Shown piece by piece: positions 1-9,940 of a stretch of DNA of 10,557 nucleotides (positions are counted from its first letter, which is position 1; each line of letters starts with the position of its first letter). The DNA lies in contig PCCT01000062.1 of assembly GCA_002731985.1 (NCBI GenBank), forward strand, positions 1-10,557, read 5' to 3'. Origin of the DNA: Nitrospinota bacterium. GTDB taxonomy: Bacteria > Nitrospinota > Nitrospinia > Nitrospinales > VA-1. The position numbers were made by a program, and so were the translations under genes. The notes under the pieces are model-generated. The model saw only the letters and a list, made by a program, of their open reading frames with translations, was not told the origin of the DNA and ran no database searches.

Positions 1-2373
1 CTCATCAATCTTTCCGTCTTTAAATTTCAAATTACCTATGTAGGTATAGTCCTGTGCCGTACCAATTTTATCACCTACTTCTAAGGTGAGGCTGAGTGCA
101 TCGCGATAATACTTTTCTGCATCGGCACGTTCCCCATTATTAAAACTTAGATTCCCCATATGACGATAATCTGTGGCGATTTCTTTTTTATTAGCTTTTT
201 TAAGTGAAATTTCCAGAGCAGCCTTAAAGTGTTCATTCGCTCTTTCCCTATATCCCCGCCCCAGGCAAAGCTCTCCGAGATTCCTGTGGTCGATGCGTTG
301 TTCCATTTCGTCTTTGAGCTGATTACTTATTTCCAGGGCTTTTTTGTAATATTCTTCCTGCTTGTTCCTGGATTTTTTCTCTGAGTAAATGCTCCCTAAA
401 ACTCGACTATCATGACAAATATTTCTTAGATCGTTAATCTCTTCGGATATCTTAAGAGATTCCAGCATTAGCTTCTCGCATAGGTTCCAGTCTTCTTTTT
501 GCAGGTAAAGATTGCCACGGTTTCGATAGTCTTCGGAAATTTCATATTTGTCATTTGACTTGGTGTTTATCTCCAATGAGCTCTTGTAGAATTTATCTGC
601 ATTAGCCCAGTCGTTCTTTTGCATACTCAAATTACCCATATTGCGATAATCGTTCATCAACCCTACTTCATTTCCATTTTTCTTATTGGTGCGGGTGGAT
701 TTTTTGATAATTTTTTCAGCCTCAGGGAGCTGGCCAAGCATCATAAGCACGTTAACCCTGTTTCCATAAAGTTCTGTCAGCCCCTGGGTATCATTGTTCT
801 TTTCTTTAAGCTCCATGGCTCGACTGAAACATTCTTCGGCTCCCTTAAGGTCATTCACATCCTTCAGAATGCCCCCCAGATTCTCCAGAGTGGAACTCAG
901 GCCAGCCTCGTCTTTCAATTTTTCCTGTAGCGCGGATGTTTCCCGCATTGTCGAAACAGCCTTGTCCATTTCTCCCGCCAGAAAATAAAGGTTGCCTAAT
1001 TCATCCAGAACTGCCAGCCGGGACTTGTCGTCTTTCTCCAGTTCGGGCTTCTTGAGCTCGTTCAACAACTCTTCCTGTCTGCGGCCCAGATATTTGGGTT
1101 GACCCATGATGTAGACGAGCTTGTCTTGAGCCTGTTGCAATCCCTTAGGGTCCTGCATGGCCTCAAACAATGCACTTGCTCGACTGAAAAAGATTTCTGC
1201 CTCGTGAAGGTTTTCCTTCTTCAAGTGGATATCGCCAAGGGATTCACATTGCTGGGCTATCCCGGGCCTGTTCTCCAATTGCTCCATGAGTTCTAAAGAA
1301 CTCTCGAATTGAACTCGCGCGTCGTCATAATTTTCCTGCAACAACCTCACGTTACCCAAATTAGAATAGCCTCGGGCTTCTCCCAGGGTATCGCCGAGTT
1401 CTGCCATGAGCCCTAAGGATTGACTGTAATGCTCCCATGCGTTATCCAATTCTTTTTTATGCAGGCAGATGTTACCCAAACTACCCAGCAGATAGGATTG
1501 GCGACGCTTATCCTGCCCTGTTTGAATGATTTCCAACGCACGCTTGCAATATCCTTCGGCTTTATCGAACTGCTCTGGCTGACCCGAATATCCAAGCTGA
1601 AGTAAAATTCCAGCTAGATTGCCCATGCATATTCCGGATGAACGCTTGTCGCCCAATTCCTCAAACAATTTGATAGATTTCGAAATCACGTCTGCGGCCT
1701 TCTCCATGTTACGACCCTGGTAATACAATTCTTCAAGATCCTGATATTTAGTCAGAATCTCCTTTGTCTTCCCAGCCTGCCGCAATGACTCTATTTCAAC
1801 GAGTAAGCTTTTTTCTTTACTCTCAACGTATTTAGGATGTTTTTGCAGATCAATCAGCTTGTCCTCGATCTGTTTGATTCGGTCTTTGTGCTTTTCTGAG
1901 TCGAGAAATGTCTTGGCGCGATTAAAATAATCTTCTGCCGCATCCAGGTCGTCCTTTTTCAGGCTCACGTTTCCCAGGTTTTCGTTATAGATGCTCTGGC
2001 CTTCTGTGTCGTTGGCCTGCTCAAGGAGTTTTAACGCTTTTTTATAAGTTTCATCGGCTTCGTCTAACTTGCCTTTGTAAAAGAGAACACTTCCCAGATT
2101 ACCAAGGGAACTCTCAATTCCTCTGAGATCATTTACTTTCTCCATGTACGTCAGTGCTTTGCTGTAATATTCTTCAGCCTTATCCAATCGACGACTCTGA
2201 AAACAAAGATTACCAAGGTTCCCCTGCACGTAGGCCTGCCCCTGTTCGTCCCCGCACTGTTCCATTAGCTTTAAGGCCTGGAGAAAATTGGATTCTGCTT
2301 CCGAAAGATTGTTCTGCTTCAAACAATCCAACGCAATTTTTTCGTACTTCCTGCCCTCTTCAATTTCCGCCAT
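1..2373 (-). CDS. Long TPR-repeat protein, C-terminus beyond left edge
   Basis: An open frame of 791 codons runs without a stop from ATG at 2373-2371 to the left edge. It contains about 18 tetratricopeptide units, mostly spaced 40 residues apart, each with an N-L-G-N-L type helix A and a helix B like A-E-x-Y-Y-x-x-A-L (starting near residues 12, 52, 92, 132, 212, 250, 290, 330, 372, 457, 497, 537, 577, 617, 657, 697, 737, 777). Two breaks, near 155-210 and 415-455, share a PKY motif and look like copies of one spacer. No signal peptide or membrane segment is visible, so it is probably a cytoplasmic protein-interaction scaffold. The start is supported by AAGG 9 nt upstream and by an in-frame stop 15 codons upstream. 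A consensus promoter precedes it. Proteins of this repeat type may carry an effector domain (for example CHAT) after the repeats, but that part is outside the window. The TPR call is very secure; the function is unknown. Confidence 0.93.
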   Translation of the reverse strand, partial: MAEIEEGRKYEKIALDCLKQNNLSEAESNFLQALKLMEQCGDEQGQAYVQGNLGNLCFQSRRLDKAEEYYSKALTYMEKVNDLRGIESSLGNLGSVLFYKGKLDEADETYKKALKLLEQANDTEGQSIYNENLGNVSLKKDDLDAAEDYFNRAKTFLDSEKHKDRIKQIEDKLIDLQKHPKYVESKEKSLLVEIESLRQAGKTKEILTKYQDLEELYYQGRNMEKAADVISKSIKLFEELGDKRSSGICMGNLAGILLQLGYSGQPEQFDKAEGYCKRALEIIQTGQDKRRQSYLLGSLGNICLHKKELDNAWEHYSQSLGLMAELGDTLGEARGYSNLGNVRLLQENYDDARVQFESSLELMEQLENRPGIAQQCESLGDIHLKKENLHEAEIFFSRASALFEAMQDPKGLQQAQDKLVYIMGQPKYLGRRQEELLNELKKPELEKDDKSRLAVLDELGNLYFLAGEMDKAVSTMRETSALQEKLKDEAGLSSTLENLGGILKDVNDLKGAEECFSRAMELKEKNNDTQGLTELYGNRVNVLMMLGQLPEAEKIIKKSTRTNKKNGNEVGLMNDYRNMGNLSMQKNDWANADKFYKSSLEINTKSNDKYEISEDYRNRGNLYLQKEDWNLCEKLMLESLKISEEINDLRNICHDSRVLGSIYSEKKSRNKQEEYYKKALEISNQLKDEMEQRIDHRNLGELCLGRGYRERANEHFKAALEISLKKANKKEIATDYRHMGNLSFNNGERADAEKYYRDALSLTLEVGDKIGTAQDYTYIGNLKFKDGKIDE

Positions 2374-2497: not shown

Positions 2498-2526
2498 ATT
2501 ATAAAGTTTCCAGTTTCTCCTGTCAA
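2498..2526 (-). promoter_or_regulatory. Consensus sigma70 promoter for the TPR gene
   Basis: On the minus strand, TTGACA (2526-2521) and TATAAT (2503-2498) are separated by exactly 17 nt. Both hexamers match the sigma70 consensus perfectly. The predicted start near 2491 gives a leader of about 117 nt before the TPR ATG. Confidence 0.8.
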
Positions 2527-2659: not shown

Positions 2660-4498
2660 CTACAGGTTGGCGTTGTGAGGTAGTGCAAGAGTCAGGTATT
2701 TGCCCTTTTCTCCGTACAGAATGCCCATTTCTTCCAGTTGCTGGACCGCATTTTCGGCTGCATCTTCCTCTTCTGCCCCCAATTCCTGGGTATGCTTTTT
2801 GATCTGGTCCAGGGTTTTTGGAGATTCGTTGCAAAATAGCAGGGTCCAGGCTGGTGGTCCTTCAAATCTTTTTTTAACGGTGTTGCCTGCCGACCTGTCA
2901 TCGTAGACGGTCACGAAGTTCATTGATTTGGTAAATATCAGGTAAGGCAAATCATCGGACTGGTGTCTTTCCTTCCATTCCTGAGCGGTGTGGAGTAATT
3001 CGCTTCTTAATTCGGGATCAATTTTATTTTCTGACGTAAATTCGAAATCGTAAGCAATTTTGAACAGGTCGATATCGGGCGAATCGTAAACATACGGATA
3101 GGCCTCTCCCGGTGCTTTAATTTTGACTCCGTATTCTTCGGGACGAGCGTAATATGGGCTGAACCGCTCCAGGTAAAGGTCGCCAACACATTCCGGCGGG
3201 GGCAGGTGAAATAGAAGTTTGATCAAATCGATTTGATTACGATAATCTTCATCGGTCTCACCGGGGAATCCGATCAGTATATTCCAGTTCACCGCGATCC
3301 CGTAATACATCGCCCATTTCATGCAGAGAATATTTTGTAGCGGTCGTACGCCTTTATCCATTGCCATCAACTGATTCAGGCTGAAGCTTTCGATCCCGGG
3401 TTGAATCACATTAGCCCCGCCATGGGCAAGTGACTTGATCTGCTGTTTAGTAAGGTTGCTTTTCACTTCGATAAAAAACTGGAGGTCGAAATTGTTGTGG
3501 GCCATTTCTCCGAAGATGCCATCGATGTATTTCAGTTCCAGAATATTATCCACAAGCCTGAACCGGAAAGAGTCGTAGCGTTGCGCCAGATAGGCAATAT
3601 CGGCCTGAACCTGATCGATCGGTTTAGATCTGAATTCCATGGTATTGGCATTCAGCCCGCAGAAAGTGCAGTGATGCTTCTCCCCCCACCAGCAACCCCG
3701 GGCTGTCTCGTATAGAATGATCGGGTTTTCCAGCAGTGGCGAGTTGGGGTCGATCTGCCGCAACTGCTCGAAAAAATCATCGTAATCAGGCGGAGCGTTT
3801 TCACTGAAGTCATTTAACAGTTCGTGATTGTCTTCATAAACTATTTCTCTACCATCCCTGTGCACGACTCCTTTCGGAGGAGTTTCACCTTTTTCCAGGG
3901 ACTCCATAAGGGGAACCAATACACCTTCGGCTTCACCGGGAACGACAAAATCAATCCAGGGAAACACGCGAAAATATTCCAATCCCATTTCATCTTCGAA
4001 ATTGGAACCGCCAAACATGATCTTAACGGATGGATGCTTCTCTTTAATCAGTTTGGCCAGTGTGATGCTTGCAACGTTCTGATTGAAGGTCGAGGAAAAC
4101 CCTATAACGTCGTATTGACCCCAGTCACCGGCCTCAACCGCCCATTGAAGAAATTCTGGAACCATTTTTGTTTTGACGTCTATCAAAAATTCGCGCGGGC
4201 GGTCAATGGACTGGCAAATTTCTTCGATATGAGAATCAAAATGGTTCATGTAGTCCTGATTATTAGGATTCTCGCCAAACAGAAGATGCGAAAAAAGCCA
4301 CTCGCCGACGAGAAACCTTTTTTCACAGAGCTTGTTATAAACAGGCATCCCCAACTGGTGGGCAAAGTGAAGGTTCAGATAATGGCTCTTCACCGGCCAG
4401 CCTTTGGATTTGAGCAAAGTGGAAAGGGTCCCTAACTGGATGGATGGGTAGATATGGAACCCGAAGGGCATATTTATCAAAGCAATATTTAATGACAT
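2660..4498 (-). CDS. B12-type radical SAM enzyme, RiPP-maturation-like
   Basis: The protein has 612 residues. The N-terminus (I-N-M-P-F, then G-W-P-V-K-S-H-Y-L-N-L and L-V-G-E-W-L-F near residues 33-69) matches my recollection of the RiPP-maturation radical SAM protein 1 family. Residues 125-200 form a cobalamin-binding-like Rossmann segment (YDVIGFSSTF, IMFGG, VVPGEAEG). The 4Fe-4S cluster motif is C269-X7-C277-X2-C280 within RGCWWGEKHHCTFCGLN. The barrel continues to about residue 450, with N-W-N-I-L-I-G-F-P-G-E-T-D-E-D at 404-417. Residues 550-605 look like a small winged helix. Members of this family lie near ribosomal peptide precursors and are thought to modify them, often as C-methyltransferases; the reaction here is unknown. 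The ATG at 4498 has no Shine-Dalgarno sequence. The gene is divergent from the 664-aa gene, and no clear precursor is adjacent. The family call is confident; the substrate is not known. Confidence 0.88.
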   Translation of the reverse strand: MSLNIALINMPFGFHIYPSIQLGTLSTLLKSKGWPVKSHYLNLHFAHQLGMPVYNKLCEKRFLVGEWLFSHLLFGENPNNQDYMNHFDSHIEEICQSIDRPREFLIDVKTKMVPEFLQWAVEAGDWGQYDVIGFSSTFNQNVASITLAKLIKEKHPSVKIMFGGSNFEDEMGLEYFRVFPWIDFVVPGEAEGVLVPLMESLEKGETPPKGVVHRDGREIVYEDNHELLNDFSENAPPDYDDFFEQLRQIDPNSPLLENPIILYETARGCWWGEKHHCTFCGLNANTMEFRSKPIDQVQADIAYLAQRYDSFRFRLVDNILELKYIDGIFGEMAHNNFDLQFFIEVKSNLTKQQIKSLAHGGANVIQPGIESFSLNQLMAMDKGVRPLQNILCMKWAMYYGIAVNWNILIGFPGETDEDYRNQIDLIKLLFHLPPPECVGDLYLERFSPYYARPEEYGVKIKAPGEAYPYVYDSPDIDLFKIAYDFEFTSENKIDPELRSELLHTAQEWKERHQSDDLPYLIFTKSMNFVTVYDDRSAGNTVKKRFEGPPAWTLLFCNESPKTLDQIKKHTQELGAEEEDAAENAVQQLEEMGILYGEKGKYLTLALPHNANL

Positions 4499-4504
4499 GA
4501 GCGC

Positions 4505-4510
4505 ATTGTA
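4505..4510 (-). promoter_or_regulatory. Possible -10 box for a leaderless radical SAM transcript
   Basis: TACAAT on the minus strand ends 6 nt before the radical SAM ATG, which would place transcription initiation at or beside the A of the ATG. The absence of any Shine-Dalgarno sequence fits a leaderless mRNA. The matching -35 (TTCTCC at 17-nt spacing) is poor, so this is tentative. Confidence 0.3.
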
Positions 4511-4538
4511 GCAGTTAACATTTTATGGGAGAAGTTTT

Positions 4539-4566
4539 TATTGAAGACCGCGAACGGTTTTCAATA
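4539..4566. repeat. 12-bp-stem inverted repeat in the divergent intergenic region
   Basis: TATTGAAGACCG and CGGTTTTCAATA flank the 4-nt loop CGAA. Eleven of 12 pairs are Watson-Crick and one is a G-T pair. On the minus strand the loop reads TTCG. It lies 41 nt upstream of the radical SAM ATG. No gene is visible whose transcript it would end, so it is more likely an operator for a dimeric regulator or a 5'-leader hairpin than a terminator. Confidence 0.6.
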
Positions 4567-4763
4567 TCTTTCTTAGGTAGACAGAGGAGGTATTTCGTAA
4601 GTTAAAGTTACAATGACGACCATCATATAGTAAGGGATATAAGTTCTGACTCTTAACCGTGATCAAATTTCAGCAATTGGTTCTTTGACTGCTTTCTATA
4701 ATGTGTAAGCAATAAGCCAACCTTATATAGCCATTTATAAATATCCATTTCCACCACTCTTCA
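4567..4763. other. AT-rich intergenic stretch without a recognised gene
   Basis: This is the rest of the 334-bp gap between the divergent radical SAM and 664-aa genes. It contains an isolated TATAAT at 4697-4702 without a good -35 and a GAGGAGG sequence near 4585 with no start codon at a suitable distance. I see no tRNA, riboswitch or credible small ORF here. Confidence 0.4.
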
Positions 4764-4793
4764 TTGACAGGAGGCGATTAGGCTCTCTATAAT
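4764..4793 (+). promoter_or_regulatory. Sigma70 promoter for the 664-aa gene
   Basis: TTGACA at 4764-4769 and TATAAT at 4788-4793 are both perfect consensus hexamers with an 18-nt spacer. Initiation near 4800 gives a short leader of about 33 nt that contains the ribosome binding site at 4821-4825. Confidence 0.75.
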
Positions 4794-4820
4794 CAGCGTT
4801 TTTATTAATTCTAAGAATTT

Positions 4821-4825
4821 GAGGG
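4821..4825 (+). promoter_or_regulatory. Ribosome binding site fixing the GTG start at 4833
   Basis: GAGGG is followed by 7 nt and then GTG. This spacing is near ideal and no in-frame ATG competes nearby, so the GTG start is well supported. Confidence 0.7.
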
Positions 4826-4832
4826 ATATCCT

Positions 4833-6827
4833 GTGCTGGAGAAAAAAATCCGAGCGGCTTTGTCACGTCCTGGCTCTTTTTCGTTTGATGGCAATGCGGC
4901 TTCTGCCAAGTCTATCAGCGATAACTTTGCTCAACATAATGTAACGAAACTAGACGGCGCCACTTTTGTGCACGGTGGCGATGCACCGAGTGTTGCCAAT
5001 ACGCGCGTCAAGGTGTACCCGACGGGACACATGGCCTTCTACAATGCCGAAGGTCGCCGGTTTCTGGGGACTGACCCGGGCGGGCACCCTCTGCATGAAG
5101 CCAAGTGGAGCAAGGACCCGTCTACGGGTGAAACCTGTCTGGAGAAGGCGCGCATGCAACTGGACTCTTTGCAATGGGTTGGCATTCAACCTCGCTCGCG
5201 GACTTTTCAGTCGCAGATAGATATCAAGGGTCAGCCGGGATGGGAGGAGATGACTCTGGAGTTTCTCCGCGAGAAAGCCGCCGAAGTCTGGCGGGTCCCT
5301 GTATCGGAGGTGAATTACTTCTACAAGGAAGGCAATCTGGAATCGCTTGGCGATGGCAAATACAACGTCAAGCTAACGAAGGATTCGCTCTTCGCTTTAC
5401 CCGATGGGAACTTTGACGGTCGAAAAGTATTCTTAAGCTTCATGTTTCAGGTCAACTGGGCAAGGCTGGATATCATCCCTGTTGTGGAGTTATTTCAGTC
5501 CACTCTACCGGGAAGTGGTGGCGCCGCTTTTGAGTTCTTATGGGGAATTTATGAAGATCAATCGCGTGAGGAGGCGTTGGACACTCTTCGCTATCGCGGG
5601 CTTCCCACCTATCCTTCCACGGCGGCCTATAACATCTTCGCGTCCTTTTTCATCCCCAAGGCTCCTGAAGGGGAAGAAGATATTTTACGGGTATTCATGG
5701 ACACCAACCGGTCGCATGAAATCACATGGACACCACAGTCTAATCCTCCATGGCGATACTTTAATGACATGTCTAAAATTTGCCTGACAGTCCACAACGG
5801 ATGTATCTACAAAGTCACCTGCTACGATGAGACTAATCCAATTCCTTACGTCAACCGGTCGATCGGCGGCAACCCGTCTTGTCAGAGAGAGGTGCAGGTC
5901 TCGTCCCGAGCTTTTTTCCTGGTGGATGGGGAAGAACGAAAAGAATTTTCATTTCATCCGGACTGGAATGTCAAACCACAAACTGATTTACCGGCGAAAA
6001 TCCCGGATTATCCGTACAGCTGGACATGGTTTTTTAATGGCTTCGCTCCGGAGACGGACATCATTAAATCAATTTACACCGTTCCTTTTTATCCGGAAGG
6101 AGACGCTGAAATAGAGGAACCTGCTTTGCAACCGCTGGCGCTGGATCAAATCATTTATTATATGGAGATGGCGCCGGGAATGTCCGCCAGATTGGAAAAA
6201 GTCGAGCGTGTTCTGGTGCATACCTTCGACATGGTCATCGCCGGATGTATTGATTGTACTCATGAGCGTGAATACACGGTCCTATACAGCGACCCGGAGT
6301 TGGCCCAGAAAAACGCGCATCAGTTATGGGACTATGCCGCGAAACGAAATCAGTTGGACAATTTGAAAAAGGTTTCTTTCCTGCCTGAAAGAAAGCATCT
6401 TGAAGAAGTCTATAATGACAAGTACGGGATGATCTTTAAATGGATTCCCATGTTTTACTTTCAAGACCGAGGGGTGTGCGAACAGATACTGGCTTCATCA
6501 GTGCGCGCGCTTTTACCTGGCGGCATTTTATTTCTGGTGGGACCAAAACCGATCAGAGGACTGTTCGATCACTATGGCCTCGATTGCTTGTATGATGATC
6601 TAATGATGAATATGCCATTTTACCGACAGCACCTGAAAATGTGCCCGCAAAATCAAATCAATCAGGACATCGCAGTTTTTCTGGCTGTGAAGCGGGGTGG
6701 CTCAGAGGAACAAAACGAACCGGAGGCTGAAATGCCCCAGCCTTCATCCCAACCTGAGCCTGAACCACAAGCGGACTTAACCTCAGAACCCAATATTCCT
6801 CTGCGCGGGTTTAATCGGGATGAGTAG
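4833..6827 (+). CDS. Uncharacterised 664-aa protein with degenerate methyltransferase-like C-terminal region
   Basis: I do not recognise residues 1-450, a soluble, aromatic-rich segment with no signal peptide or clear membrane helix. Residues 455-620 have the order of a class I SAM-methyltransferase fold: a strand and acidic-loop-like YTVLYSDPELAQKNAHQL (481-498), VSFLP (514-518), a motif IV-like YGMIFKWIPMFYF (531-543), then ALLPGGILFLVGP (559-571), the common strand-turn after motif IV. The glycine-rich motif I (GxGxG) expected before residue 480 is absent; VLVHTFDMVIAGCIDC (460-475) stands there instead. The domain may therefore be a pseudo-methyltransferase or a different Rossmann fold. 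The tail (622-664) is rich in Pro and Glu and likely disordered. The gene has its own consensus promoter and is divergent from the radical SAM gene, so a shared pathway is possible but unproven. The coding call is secure; the function is unknown. Confidence 0.9.
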   Translation: MLEKKIRAALSRPGSFSFDGNAASAKSISDNFAQHNVTKLDGATFVHGGDAPSVANTRVKVYPTGHMAFYNAEGRRFLGTDPGGHPLHEAKWSKDPSTGETCLEKARMQLDSLQWVGIQPRSRTFQSQIDIKGQPGWEEMTLEFLREKAAEVWRVPVSEVNYFYKEGNLESLGDGKYNVKLTKDSLFALPDGNFDGRKVFLSFMFQVNWARLDIIPVVELFQSTLPGSGGAAFEFLWGIYEDQSREEALDTLRYRGLPTYPSTAAYNIFASFFIPKAPEGEEDILRVFMDTNRSHEITWTPQSNPPWRYFNDMSKICLTVHNGCIYKVTCYDETNPIPYVNRSIGGNPSCQREVQVSSRAFFLVDGEERKEFSFHPDWNVKPQTDLPAKIPDYPYSWTWFFNGFAPETDIIKSIYTVPFYPEGDAEIEEPALQPLALDQIIYYMEMAPGMSARLEKVERVLVHTFDMVIAGCIDCTHEREYTVLYSDPELAQKNAHQLWDYAAKRNQLDNLKKVSFLPERKHLEEVYNDKYGMIFKWIPMFYFQDRGVCEQILASSVRALLPGGILFLVGPKPIRGLFDHYGLDCLYDDLMMNMPFYRQHLKMCPQNQINQDIAVFLAVKRGGSEEQNEPEAEMPQPSSQPEPEPQADLTSEPNIPLRGFNRDE

Positions 6828-6863: not shown

Positions 6864-6893
6864 ATCGTAGCCATCCTGATCCGAACTACAATT

Positions 6894-6897
6894 GGAG
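6894..6897 (+). promoter_or_regulatory. Ribosome binding site choosing ATG 6904 over TTG 6892
   Basis: GGAG lies 6 nt upstream of ATG 6904. An upstream in-frame TTG at 6892 overlaps this site and has no binding site of its own, so ATG 6904 is preferred. Confidence 0.65.
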
Positions 6898-6903
6898 TCG
6901 GTC

Positions 6904-7269
6904 ATGCACGAAGATTATGAATACGCCGGAATGAAAATCCTCATCGTTGAGGATACTCCCGAAAACATAACTGTCCTCCGCAAAGTGCTAGAGAGATTGG
7001 AACTTTCTGTTTCAATCGCGCTTGACGGAGAAACCGCGCTTACATCTGCCCCTGAAATAGATCCTGATTTAATTTTACTGAATGTTGGGTTGCCTGGAAT
7101 TGAAGGCTTTGAAGTTTGCAGTAGATTTAAAAAGGATGCCACCTTCAAAAAGATTCCCGGTACCTTCCTCACGGCAATGACAGATACTGAAAGCATGGTT
7201 AAGGGATTTGCTTTAGGAGGAATTGATTATATTGCCAAGCCCTACAATCACTTGGAAAAATATGGGTAA
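6904..7269 (+). CDS. Truncated response-regulator receiver domain lacking the phospho-acceptor Asp
   Basis: This 121-aa product is a lone CheY-like receiver. It has MKILIVEDTPEN (10-21, with the acidic pair E16-D17), DLILLNVGLPGIEGFEVC (55-72), FLTAMTD (88-94, Thr90 in the switch position) and GIDYIAKPYN (106-115, conserved Lys112). The residue that should be the phosphorylated Asp, normally in a LLDVMLPG-type motif, is Asn60. The protein ends at NHLEKYG, before the helix 5 that normally follows the K-P motif, and no output domain follows. Its best parallels are the N-terminal receivers of larger hybrid or output proteins. It may be a phosphorylation-independent pseudo-receiver or the decaying remnant of a longer gene. 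Its last codons overlap the symporter start (ATG at 7262 inside TATGGGTAA), so translation may be coupled. Confidence 0.82.
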   Translation: MHEDYEYAGMKILIVEDTPENITVLRKVLERLELSVSIALDGETALTSAPEIDPDLILLNVGLPGIEGFEVCSRFKKDATFKKIPGTFLTAMTDTESMVKGFALGGIDYIAKPYNHLEKYG

Positions 7270-8611
7270 ATTTTTTGCTGATTTTGCCAGCCTGATGTGG
7301 GGGCCCTGGCTTCTCATTCTCCTACTGGGAGCGGGACTCTGGTTGACGTTCCGGCTTGGTGGAATTCAGTTCAGGAATCTGTTTTACGCGTTTCGCTTAA
7401 CCTTCTCTAAAGAGCGAAGTGGCAAAGGGGATATCTCTCATTTCGGGTCATTGATGACGGCTATGGCCGCGACCGTGGGAATGGGTAATATAGCCGGCGT
7501 TAGCACTGCCGTTGCTTTGGGAGGCCCCGGTGCGATCTTCTGGATGTGGATGACAGGCCTAGTGGGAATGGCCACAAAATATTCGGAAAGTTTTTTAGCT
7601 GTCAAATACAGGCAGTTCAACGAGGAAGGAGAAATTTCCGGCGGCCCCATGTATTACCTGGAACATGGACTCGGCCAAAAATGGCTGGGTATGTGTTTTG
7701 CCGCGTTTGGCGCTTTGGCGGCATTTGGCATTGGCAACATGATCCAGGCAAACACCACCGCCACCGCAGTAGCAGAGGCTACGGGATCGGGAAAGTTTGC
7801 CATGGGAATTGTGTTATCTGTTTTAACAGGATTGGTCATCATCGGCGGAATCAAGCGAATCGCCGAGGTCGCGAGCTATTTTGTACCCATAATGGTGGCG
7901 ATTTATTTAATTGGCGCTTTAGTGGTTATATTTTCCAATCTGGACCATCTGGGCTCAGGAATACAGTTGATTTTTGAACACGCCTTTAGCGGAACGGCCG
8001 CCACGGGTGGATTTTTGGGAGCCTCCCTCGCTCAAACAATCCGTTTTGGAGTGGCGCGGGGTCTCTTCTCCAACGAATCAGGAATGGGAAGCGCTCCCAT
8101 CGCGGCGGCGGCGGCAAAAACCAACCACCCTGGAAAACAAGCCCTCGTTTCAATGTCAGGAACCTTTCTCGACACTCTGGTTGTGTGTTCTCTCACCGCG
8201 CTGGCTCTGAGCTCCTCGGGGGTTTGGGTTTCAGGAGAAACCGGCGTCGCTTTGACCATGCAAGCATTCACCGGTAGCCTTTCTGGAAACTGGGGTAGCC
8301 TGCTGGTAACTCTCAGTGCCGTGACATTTGCCTTCTCCTCGATTCTGGCATGGGAGTATTATGGAGAAAAATGTTTCGAATATCTTTTTGGAGAAAAGTG
8401 GGTCCATTTTTATCGATACCTCTGGGTAATTTTTGTGTTTGTTGGAGCCATGGTAAAACTGGAAATCGTTTGGAATTTTTCTGACGCGATGAACGCGATG
8501 ATGACTGTTCCAAATCTGATAGGACTCATACTGTTGAGTGGAAAACTATCCAAGGAAACCCAGGCCTTTGAGGTGGGCATCCGTGAAGGCACTATCGATA
8601 AATTCGATTAA
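7262..8611 (+). CDS. AGCS-family amino-acid (alanine/glycine):cation symporter
   Basis: A 449-aa integral inner-membrane transporter, full length for the sodium:alanine/glycine symporter family, which imports small neutral amino acids with Na+ or H+. Family signatures are WGPWLLILLLGAGLWLTFRL (13-31), VGMGNIAGVSTAVALGGPGA (72-91), SGGPMYYLEHGLG (126-138) and GLFSNESGMGSAPIAAAAA (267-285). About 10-11 hydrophobic helices are visible. ATG 7262 puts 12 residues before WGP, normal for the family. It has only a weak GGA 5 nt upstream, so translation may depend on coupling to the overlapping receiver gene. Longer TTG starts at 7223 or 7232 are possible, and an AGGAGG at 7215-7220 lies near them, but the extra residues do not look like family sequence. 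No glycine riboswitch is evident upstream. The substrate cannot be settled from sequence. Confidence 0.93.
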   Translation: MGKFFADFASLMWGPWLLILLLGAGLWLTFRLGGIQFRNLFYAFRLTFSKERSGKGDISHFGSLMTAMAATVGMGNIAGVSTAVALGGPGAIFWMWMTGLVGMATKYSESFLAVKYRQFNEEGEISGGPMYYLEHGLGQKWLGMCFAAFGALAAFGIGNMIQANTTATAVAEATGSGKFAMGIVLSVLTGLVIIGGIKRIAEVASYFVPIMVAIYLIGALVVIFSNLDHLGSGIQLIFEHAFSGTAATGGFLGASLAQTIRFGVARGLFSNESGMGSAPIAAAAAKTNHPGKQALVSMSGTFLDTLVVCSLTALALSSSGVWVSGETGVALTMQAFTGSLSGNWGSLLVTLSAVTFAFSSILAWEYYGEKCFEYLFGEKWVHFYRYLWVIFVFVGAMVKLEIVWNFSDAMNAMMTVPNLIGLILLSGKLSKETQAFEVGIREGTIDKFD

Positions 8612-8685: not shown

Positions 8686-8995
8686 ATGAAAAAAACTAAT
8701 ATTAAAACACTACTCGATCATCTGTATTCTTCTGGGTTTCCTGATTATCAATCCTGCGGGTCCCGCCTTCGGCGAAATCGATCTAAAACTTTCCCCCAAC
8801 ACCTTTGACAAGTTTTCTGTAGACGGTCAACTCCACACTTTTTTCCGACACGACAGCAACCCCTCTTTAGGAAAGTTTCATTTTACCTACTCTATGGATG
8901 GGCAGGATCGCGAACTGATTCGGCAGTTTGCTTTGAAAAAACAAATCGGAAAGGTCAGGCGAAACCGCAAGCTCGAAATATCACTTGTCGAATAG
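8686..8995 (+). pseudogene. Small secreted protein gene, out of frame at a 7-A run after its ATG
   Basis: Translation from ATG 8686 gives only a 40-aa nonsense-like product (stop at 8806-8808). The +1 frame is open from the A run to TAG at 8993-8995. Reading the run of seven A residues (8689-8695) as six gives a coherent 102-aa protein. It starts MKKLILKHYSIICILLGFLI, a textbook signal peptide with positive N-region and hydrophobic core. A likely cleavage site is AFG|E after residue 29. A polar mature part of about 73 residues follows (for example LSPNTFDKFSVDGQL and LGKFHFTYSMDGQDREL). I recognise no family. The defect may be a homopolymer sequencing error, a real mutation, or a slippery site allowing transcriptional or translational frameshifting. 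Its 3' end overlaps the convergent ftsY end by 15 bp. Confidence 0.7.
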
Positions 8996-9940
8996 GGCTT
9001 CTACGAATGATTTCGGATTAAAGGGTTGAAGGTCATCGACCTTCTCACCCACTCCGATAAAGCGCACGGGTACTTTAAGTTCGCGAGTGATGTTAAATAA
9101 TACCCCACCCTTGGAAGAGCCATCCAGCTTGGTCATCACTAGTCCATCCACATTCAGCGTGTCGTGAAACAACCTCGCCTGGGACAAACTGTTTTGTCCG
9201 ATGGACGCGTCGAGGACCAGGAGAGTTTCATGAGGAGCGCCTGCAACTACTTTCCCGATAACGCGTTTAATCTTTTTTAATTCTTCCATTAAATTCTTAT
9301 TGGTTTGCAGACGTCCCGCAGTGTCAACAATAACCCTATCTGCATTCCGCGTCACAGCAGACTGAACAGCGTCATAGGCGACTGCCGAAGGATCGGTCCC
9401 GCTTTTCTGGCTCACACAAGTAACACCGGTACGTTCTGCCCAAGCCTGCAACTGCTCGGTTGCCGCCGCCCGAAAGGTATCCCCGGCGGCCACGATAACC
9501 TGTTGCCCTTCTGCTTTATACCTTGCGGCCAGCTTACCGATAGTCGTTGTCTTTCCTGATCCATTGATACCAATCATCAGCACAACACAGGGGCCTTCTA
9601 CCGGTGGAAGTTCTTCCGCCGAGACCTCCTCTAAAACACGAACCAGAAGCTCTTTTAAATGATTCAGAATTCCTTCTTTTTCCCTGATAAGAGATGTAGC
9701 GACACCTTTTTTCAACTCTTCCATGATCCAGGTCATCGTGGGAATACCCATATCTGCGATCAGCAGAACCTCTTCCAGTTCCTGCCATAACTCAGGTCCT
9801 ATTTCTGCCGGGCCATTAACCACCCGGTCAATCCCGCCGGCAAAACTGCTACGGGTTTTCTGAAGTCCAGATTTCAAGCGTGAAAAAAAACCACCTTTTT
9901 TATTATCCGTTTCAACTGTATTTTCTTCTGCACCATCCAT
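8981..9940 (-). CDS. ftsY: Signal recognition particle receptor FtsY
   Basis: A 319-aa SRP-family GTPase that docks SRP-ribosome complexes at the inner membrane for co-translational insertion by SecYEG. A short acidic N-terminal segment (1-16) is followed by the N domain ([20 protein letters not shown], then the helical bundle to about 110). The G domain carries G1 GINGSGKTT (124-132), the SRP-specific insertion motif DTFRAAA (154-160), G3 DTAGR (206-210), G4 TKLD (270-273), GVGE (296-299) and the closing [16 protein letters not shown]. All motifs are intact. The N-terminal A domain is short, as in many bacteria outside enterics. Start ATG 9940-9938 is preceded by AGGA at 9-nt spacing. The gene stands alone on the minus strand, convergent with the small secreted-protein gene. 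Confidence 0.98.

Follow-up and report, generated by a model that had tools for sequence, protein, structure and literature searches.

A predicted PoyC-type radical SAM C-methyltransferase and the conserved protein P664, probably independent neighbors in one family of Nitrospinota

Introduction

RiPP enzymes are usually found via an adjoining precursor. PoyC, a B12-dependent enzyme of the proteusin-class polytheonamide pathway, lies with its pathway in the poy gene cluster and has a reported Cx7Cx2C motif (PMC11285071, in excerpt). In the pheganomycin-type cluster of Streptomyces globosus, the gene of a TIGR03975 enzyme immediately follows an annotated RiPP precursor of the pheganomycin family, and further biosynthetic genes come after it. 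Large proteins are also targets of radical SAM methylation, by Mmp10 and related B12-dependent protein C-methylases; Mmp10 C-methylates methyl-coenzyme M reductase (PMC8828468, in excerpt).

Here we analyzed a 10,557-nt stretch of Nitrospinota DNA (contig PCCT01000062.1; "the window" below), in which a radical SAM gene is divergent from the gene for a 664-aa protein, P664 (Table 1). The radical SAM protein resembles PoyC in its Cx7Cx2C motif and predicted class B domain plan, and is 36.8% identical to the S. globosus enzyme over 100% of the query, with the CWWGAKHHCTFC motif in common. Unlike both, it has no linked precursor in the window, and the comparison with PoyC is by motif and domain plan. 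An earlier note on this DNA suggested that the pair could be a single modification system. We consider it likely that they instead represent two independent functions side by side, a PoyC-type enzyme and a P664 module, whose genes adjoin each other in some members of a single family without being a dedicated pair. Among the open-licence PMC papers listed in literature searches, none was seen to describe this locus.

Table 1. Coordinates of genes, motifs and signals in the window.
Feature	Position	Strand	Remarks
TPR-repeat protein, truncated at the end of the contig; regular divergent partner of P664 in related genomes	1..2373	-	Pfam TPR
Promoter-like pair of the TPR gene, TTGACA-17-TATAAT	2498..2526	-	Both hexamers kept in 5/5 aligned species
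Radical SAM ORF, predicted B12-type C-methyltransferase, TIGR03975 (rSAM_ocin_1), PoyC-type motif	2660..4498	-	612 aa
C-terminal 92 residues of the radical SAM protein, possible PqqD-like/RRE winged helix	2663..2938	-	
Cx7Cx2C iron-sulphur cluster motif CWWGEKHHCTFC, residues 269-280	3659..3694	-	
Hairpin between the radical SAM and P664 genes	4539..4566		Not conserved in relatives
P664 promoter, TTGACA-18-TATAAT	4764..4793	+	12/12 match; kept in 6/6 species
P664, Nitrospinota 664-aa protein of unknown function	4833..6827	+	GTG start
First 409 residues of P664: beta-rich, followed by a strongly conserved middle part	4833..6059	+	
P664 residues 409-622: predicted class I methyltransferase fold, glycine-rich motif I absent	6057..6698	+	

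Results

The radical SAM enzyme

The radical SAM and P664 ORFs are not chance reading frames, since the former matches TIGR03975 at 583.8 bits and the latter has 191 relatives in a protein database at E ≤ 1e-3. The TIGR03975 score lies above the curated cut-off of 281.85 and spans the complete model (1-606 of 606) in a profile search, which bears out the family call of the earlier note; its hallmark motifs of RiPP-maturation radical SAM proteins were all found as well (INMPF near the start, GWPVKSH, and CWWGEKHHCTFCGLN). The Radical_SAM Pfam domain is above its cut-off, and the B12-binding domain PF02310 reaches 25 bits, under the Pfam cut-off of 32.1. The Cx7Cx2C motif is kept in 34/34 orthologues and in 120/120 among the database matches listed. 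At the C-terminus, the possible RRE has a weak match to the PqqD-type model TIGR04353 (E 0.12, 13.4 bits against a cut-off of 35) and none from Pfam or PDB sequence searches. Proteusins are named as C-terminal RRE fusions in the RRE-Finder paper (PMC7470986, in excerpt).

Based on family and motif, the gene would encode a PoyC-type, cobalamin-dependent radical SAM C-methyltransferase. As is typical of this class, a [4Fe-4S] cluster would cleave SAM to generate a radical, which would abstract hydrogen from an unactivated carbon in the peptide or protein substrate, with the methyl group coming from methylcobalamin.

Each gene of the divergent pair had been thought to carry its own promoter around the hairpin. 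The P664 promoter and the hairpin are both present; the radical SAM gene yielded no promoter in a scan of its own strand, and the hairpin is not conserved in the relatives compared. The gap between the two genes is 334 nt here versus 118-153 nt in 4/5 aligned relatives. The TPR gene on the other side has its own conserved promoter-like pair and so is not necessarily in one operon with the radical SAM gene.

P664 and its locus

Neither Pfam nor PDB sequences gave a match to P664 at E ≤ 1, and the best NCBIfam match (E 0.055 only) falls in the proline-rich tail. The structure model has a pLDDT of 88.5. The N-terminal 409 residues have no convincing relative among solved structures, and the model predicts a class I SAM methyltransferase fold at the C-terminus, in line with the methyltransferase-like C-terminal third described previously. 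In contrast to KMT9/N6AMT1 and other class I methyltransferases, P664 contains a consensus loop HTFDTVIAGCIDC in place of the GxGxG motif I, and the glycine-rich motif is absent from the consensus of 70 sequences (VLIHTFDTVIAGCIDC). NPPY, a motif of the KMT9/N6AMT1 family, is also absent from the P664 consensus.

P664 is present in 56/77 genomes, and its GTG start is kept in 6/6 aligned species. Among the matches listed (the best 120 of 191 and of 186, from 5.8 billion proteins), none was seen outside Nitrospinota; these were word-based first-look searches, one of which limited scoring to the 7995 candidates with the most words in common. The majority of matches listed carry no source-given name, and the names given all belong to the Nitrospina group (Nitrospinota, Nitrospinaceae, Nitrospinales, Nitromaritima etc.), which is known for marine nitrite oxidation. 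No P664 was seen in 72,556 plasmids.

We surveyed the P664 locus in 31 of the 56 genomes that contain it, where several loci end at contig edges and the counts are therefore lower bounds. A divergent TPR gene is found in at least 30/31 loci and a further gene, F3, in at least 27/31, with a second radical SAM gene downstream of P664 in at least 17/31. The radical SAM gene described here lies between P664 and TPR in at least 11/31. P664 appears to be part of an older order-wide module with the TPR gene and F3, to which a NapG-like ferredoxin, a 167-aa protein, and another B12-binding radical SAM protein often belong as well. Only within one family does the radical SAM gene described here lie between P664 and TPR.

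Candidate substrates of the enzyme

The radical SAM gene is near-universal in its order. Orthologues occur in 53/77 Nitrospinota genomes (E ≤ 1e-60), with one match in each, mean column identity is 75% across 36 sequences, and the gene tree groups by genus (the radical SAM and P664 trees have 34 rows each, from genes fetched with aligned length >480). This pattern, together with the Mmp10 precedent (PMC8828468, in excerpt), would fit a housekeeping methylase that modifies a core protein. However, the enzyme clearly belongs to TIGR03975 and reaches only 46.5 bits against TIGR04014 (MCR glutamine C-methyltransferase), a difference in subfamily judged by that model and not by Mmp10 itself, and no target is indicated. 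We regard a housekeeping role of this kind as somewhat unlikely.

The absence of a clear precursor, as claimed previously, is upheld in the window, where no small ORF adjoining the pair resembles one; a linked precursor gene is usual for TIGR03975 but not demanded by its cut-off. At other loci, most of the small ORFs listed are shadow frames within larger genes, and small genes may be missed. Another frame (F42) was rejected as a shadow ORF, with stops in the g6 loci. A Nif11 precursor was likewise rejected as an order-wide substrate, because it turned up in 1/60 genomes, that of the window itself, where it lies on a different contig together with three radical SAM genes of its own.

The enzyme could also be one component of a housekeeping RiPP-like system present throughout the order, with its genes scattered over the chromosome, in which a PoyC-type C-methyltransferase acts mostly in trans on a conserved small-protein family, either NHLP-like and alaS-linked or starting MHEVKVYD, and the modified members stay in the cell. 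Such a system appears unlikely. Its first version rests on the nitrile-hydratase-related leader family NHLP, whose precursors have a Gly-Gly leader end and a hypervariable core (PMC2887384, in excerpt). A search with the NHLP-leader model TIGR03793 matched 45/60 genomes at E ≤ 0.001 with 1/60 (G059) above the cut-off, and the sub-cut-off matches led to a 108-126-aa protein encoded just after alaS. This protein is found in 53/77 genomes (52 without the weak G059 match; G027 and G063 each have an additional, partial match). Its gene directly follows an AlaS-type end motif in 11/11 loci checked, and one member matches TIGR03793 at E 1.4e-10. PoyC itself comes from a proteusin pathway (PMC11285071, in excerpt). 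Yet the members scanned score 40.9 and 27.0 bits against a cut-off of 50.9, neither a clear core nor a leader ending at a fixed Gly-Gly is seen in the 11 aligned members, and no copy lies within the fetched loci around the enzyme gene. By hand count, 23 of 31 good genomes have both proteins and three have neither, which weighs little since all of these genes are clade-wide; the enzyme occurs without the NHLP-like protein in G015, G048, and G056, and the reverse is true in G032 and G038. We consider modification of this protein in trans quite unlikely.

Adjacency of the enzyme and P664 genes

The survey of adjacency covered 60 genomes (the window's own and 59 relatives), with counts tallied by hand. 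Both genes are present in 42/59 relatives, at one locus in 14 and on different contigs or far apart in 28; in the single-contig genomes G009 and G037 they are >1 Mb apart. In 12 of the 14 shared loci the genes are immediately adjacent, and in two there are one or two ORFs between them. Conservation of the adjacency, which the earlier note had singled out for checking, extends over five genera, but all 14 relatives belong to one family (f1). It requires two changes on each gene tree (on the P664 tree, leaving aside G038 and G047, which have no radical SAM match), and either persisted since the family ancestor or arose twice in the same place and orientation. Since it spans five genera, at P664 identities of 60-64% in g2, g5, and g7 and 74% in g9, a family-level link between the two genes is possible.

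The case for a single modification system, in which P664 would be the substrate, a partner or a further tailoring enzyme, could draw on these shared loci, where the genes are divergent, on the methyltransferase fold predicted in P664 and on a similar order-wide spread (53/77 and 56/77), although the shared distribution reflects common descent. The separation in 28/42 relatives and the steadier partnership of P664 with TPR argue against it. Among 31 good genomes (hand count), 25 have both genes, three have P664 only (G010, G032, and G038), one has the radical SAM gene only (G042), and two have neither. Taken together, a single system is improbable.

Away from P664, the radical SAM gene has other neighbors: a PPOX flavoprotein and a CobW-type GTPase in g6/g8, TypA in g12/g14, and a rhodanese in g3. 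In g8, a 60-aa ORF is found just upstream of the enzyme gene, which runs counter to a fully unlinked enzyme. This ORF belongs to a multi-copy 55-65-aa family starting MHEVKVYDSSGNLKK (the MHEVKVYD family), which 55/77 genomes have, often as several copies. Across the 18 copies read, the start is conserved and the tail varies. A copy is located on the same strand ~190-350 nt upstream of the enzyme gene in 11/13 g8 genomes with the enzyme (hand count) and ~5-6 kb upstream in four g6 genomes. As the substrate this family is very improbable, for it has no Pfam or NCBIfam match, its tails are short and charged, it was not seen near the enzyme in genera beyond g8 and g6, its three matches in the window's own genome are away from the enzyme (contigs C37, C39, and C106), and it is absent from G056, which has the enzyme.

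Discussion

We therefore return to the reading of two independent functions side by side, with a shared function of the enzyme and P664 inside family f1 being possible. With no linked small gene in most genera, the substrate of the enzyme is probably encoded elsewhere. P664 and its TPR partner constitute a well-conserved protein family of the order, for which we found no description and which has a confident predicted structure. The PoyC-type enzyme is kept through most of the order, mostly without a precursor, which suggests that it acts on a peptide encoded elsewhere or on a core protein.

Gene content of the window and the radical SAM enzyme

One whole contig, C62, makes up the window; the genome it comes from is 65% complete. 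The radical SAM enzyme matches TIGR03975, the RiPP maturation radical SAM C-methyltransferase model, at 584 bits (cut-off 282) with the full model covered. Its cluster motif, Cx7Cx2C at residues 269–280, is kept in 34/34 orthologues and occurs in 120/120 of the database matches listed. According to a review (PMC11285071), this spacing is particular to PoyC, which acts as C-methyltransferase on the polytheonamide pathway. The motif is also found in four plasmid homologues with 32–37% identity. The best of these lies directly behind a pheganomycin-family RiPP precursor gene, the Niallia homologue is followed immediately by an uncharacterised 56-aa ORF, one homologue adjoins a DUF5825 protein, and for the remaining one the record is unannotated at that place. 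The enzyme adds one more member to a known kind. Its last 92 residues match a PqqD-type profile weakly (E 0.12), and a putative fused peptide-binding domain at this end is plausible because proteusins are named with C-terminal RRE fusions in one section of PMC7470986.

Features of the window and of other loci (L003, L114)
Feature	Location	Strand	Remark
TPR protein	1-2373	-	cut by contig end
Radical SAM enzyme	2660-4498	-	TIGR03975
P664	4833-6827	+	ORF
Response-regulator receiver ORF	6892-7269	+	ends shortly after KP motif; overlaps AgcS frame
AgcS-type sodium:alanine symporter	7223-8611	+	
FtsY	8981-9940	-	
F3	L003:3494-4711		
Second B12-binding radical SAM protein	L003:13582-15390		
RiPP-type cluster (C74)	L114:388-6192		

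The earlier note gave the enzyme and P664 genes each a promoter around a hairpin. For P664 the promoter is a perfect match and conserved, but a scan of the enzyme-gene strand found none for the enzyme, and relatives do not conserve the hairpin. The divergent TPR gene has a conserved promoter-like pair of its own. Two other genomes of the window's genus carry a metallo-beta-lactamase-fold gene and the second radical SAM gene on the 3' side of P664. Because the downstream genes differ there, the receiver ORF in the window may mark a rearrangement or assembly junction.

Candidate substrates

A search for small Nif11 and NHLP ORFs, suggested by the earlier note, matched Nif11 in 1/60 genomes, the window's own, on contig C74 only; NHLP-leader matches (E ≤ 0.001) came from 45/60 genomes and were mostly below the cut-off. 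The C74 locus is a RiPP-type cluster. Its Nif11-leader precursor (50.9 bits, cut-off 32.3) shows a VAGG end together with a core repeat, SGDTQAYSDHF/SGDTQAYSDHY. The cluster further includes three successive radical SAM genes with Cx3Cx2C motifs and B12-type model matches, and the gene for an NHLP-clan protein of 126 aa (48.6 bits, cut-off 40). GC and tetranucleotide make-up give no clear sign of foreign origin.

The NHLP-like proteins form a family of 108–126 aa in the 11 members read, with an NHLP-resembling start and invariant W80, W81 and R84. In 11/11 loci the gene lies directly 3' of an AlaS-type end motif. Its own profile found it in 53/77 genomes (52 without a weak match in G059), including 25/31 good ones. 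These 31 comprise 23 with both it and the enzyme, three with the enzyme only, two with the NHLP-like protein only and three with neither, an overlap that is weak evidence because both genes mark the same clade. The protein lacks a Gly-Gly boundary and a recognisable core, so it falls outside the standard definition of a precursor in PMC2887384. We consider it a second candidate substrate beside the 60-aa family described below.

Where the enzyme gene lies elsewhere, its neighbours are a CobW-type GTPase and a PPOX-type flavoprotein in genera g6 and g8, TypA in g12 and g14, and a rhodanese in g3; in G056 the next gene encodes a relative (45%) of the second radical SAM protein. In 11/13 enzyme-bearing g8 genomes a 60-aa ORF on the strand of the enzyme gene lies ~190–350 nt upstream of it, the exceptions being G063 (5.3 kb off) and G067 (none seen near the enzyme gene). 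In four g6 genomes the ORF is about 5–6 kb upstream. This family, often multi-copy, occurs in 55/77 genomes (28/31 good ones) and matched no Pfam or NCBIfam model. In the 18 copies read, the start, MHEVKVYDSSGNLKKVISVK, is conserved and the charged tail varies. G056 has the enzyme without this family. A putative link between the two is possible.

P664 and its partners

Among the matches listed, named P664 relatives are all Nitrospina, Nitrospinaceae or Nitrospinota, and our literature searches (open-licence PMC) found no description of the family. Neighbours were counted at 31 loci, one per genome, from the 56 genomes having P664. At 30 of them the TPR gene and P664 point away from each other. 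F3, a protein of about 400 aa with no Pfam family, is present at 27, the second B12-binding radical SAM protein lies downstream at 17, F5 is found at 14, a NapG-like ferredoxin at 12, and at 11 the interval from TPR to P664 holds the enzyme gene. Only G056 is without these partners. P664 is a lineage-restricted family, and the TPR gene is its steady partner.

Own-genome contig C64 carries the MBL protein, second radical SAM, F5, NapG-like and AspS genes in one block. The second radical SAM protein (L003 and relatives) has an unusual Cx4Cx2C spacing, reading CYWGECTFC in L003 and CYWGKCTFC or CYWGQCEFC in 12/12 orthologues with >480 aligned residues; no NCBIfam model scored above its cut-off. 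F3 adjoins the TPR gene in 27/31 loci, carries CPLC and CDRC close to its C-terminus, and matched nothing in Pfam or NCBIfam. An 800-aa P664 relative (P0119) has a PF02915 domain, which we take to be rubrerythrin, placed by sequence in a C-terminal extension. Second, more distant P664 copies (50–51% identity) occur in G019 (L099) and G015 (L100); neither has a TPR partner within the sequence fetched.

Pairing of the enzyme with P664

The divergent gene pair described in the earlier note stands as an observation; its reading as one modification system was followed across 60 genomes (the window's own and 59 relatives). P664 was found in 49, the radical SAM gene in 48 and both in 43, or 42 excluding the own genome. 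The two share a locus in 14/42 relatives, as immediate neighbours in 12, and these 14 loci come from five genera (g1, g2, g5, g7, g9), all within family f1. In the other 28 the genes are far apart or on separate contigs. A few of these could be assembly gaps, since some contigs are short; in the single-contig genomes G009 and G037 the distance exceeds 1 Mb. At 19/31 fetched loci P664 is directly flanked by TPR, with the enzyme gene not there. Adjacency maps to two groups within f1 and takes two changes on each gene tree. It dates either from the f1 ancestor, with loss in g3 and g6/g8, or from two separate gains. The pairing of the enzyme with P664 is a family-level arrangement, which may or may not be functionally important.
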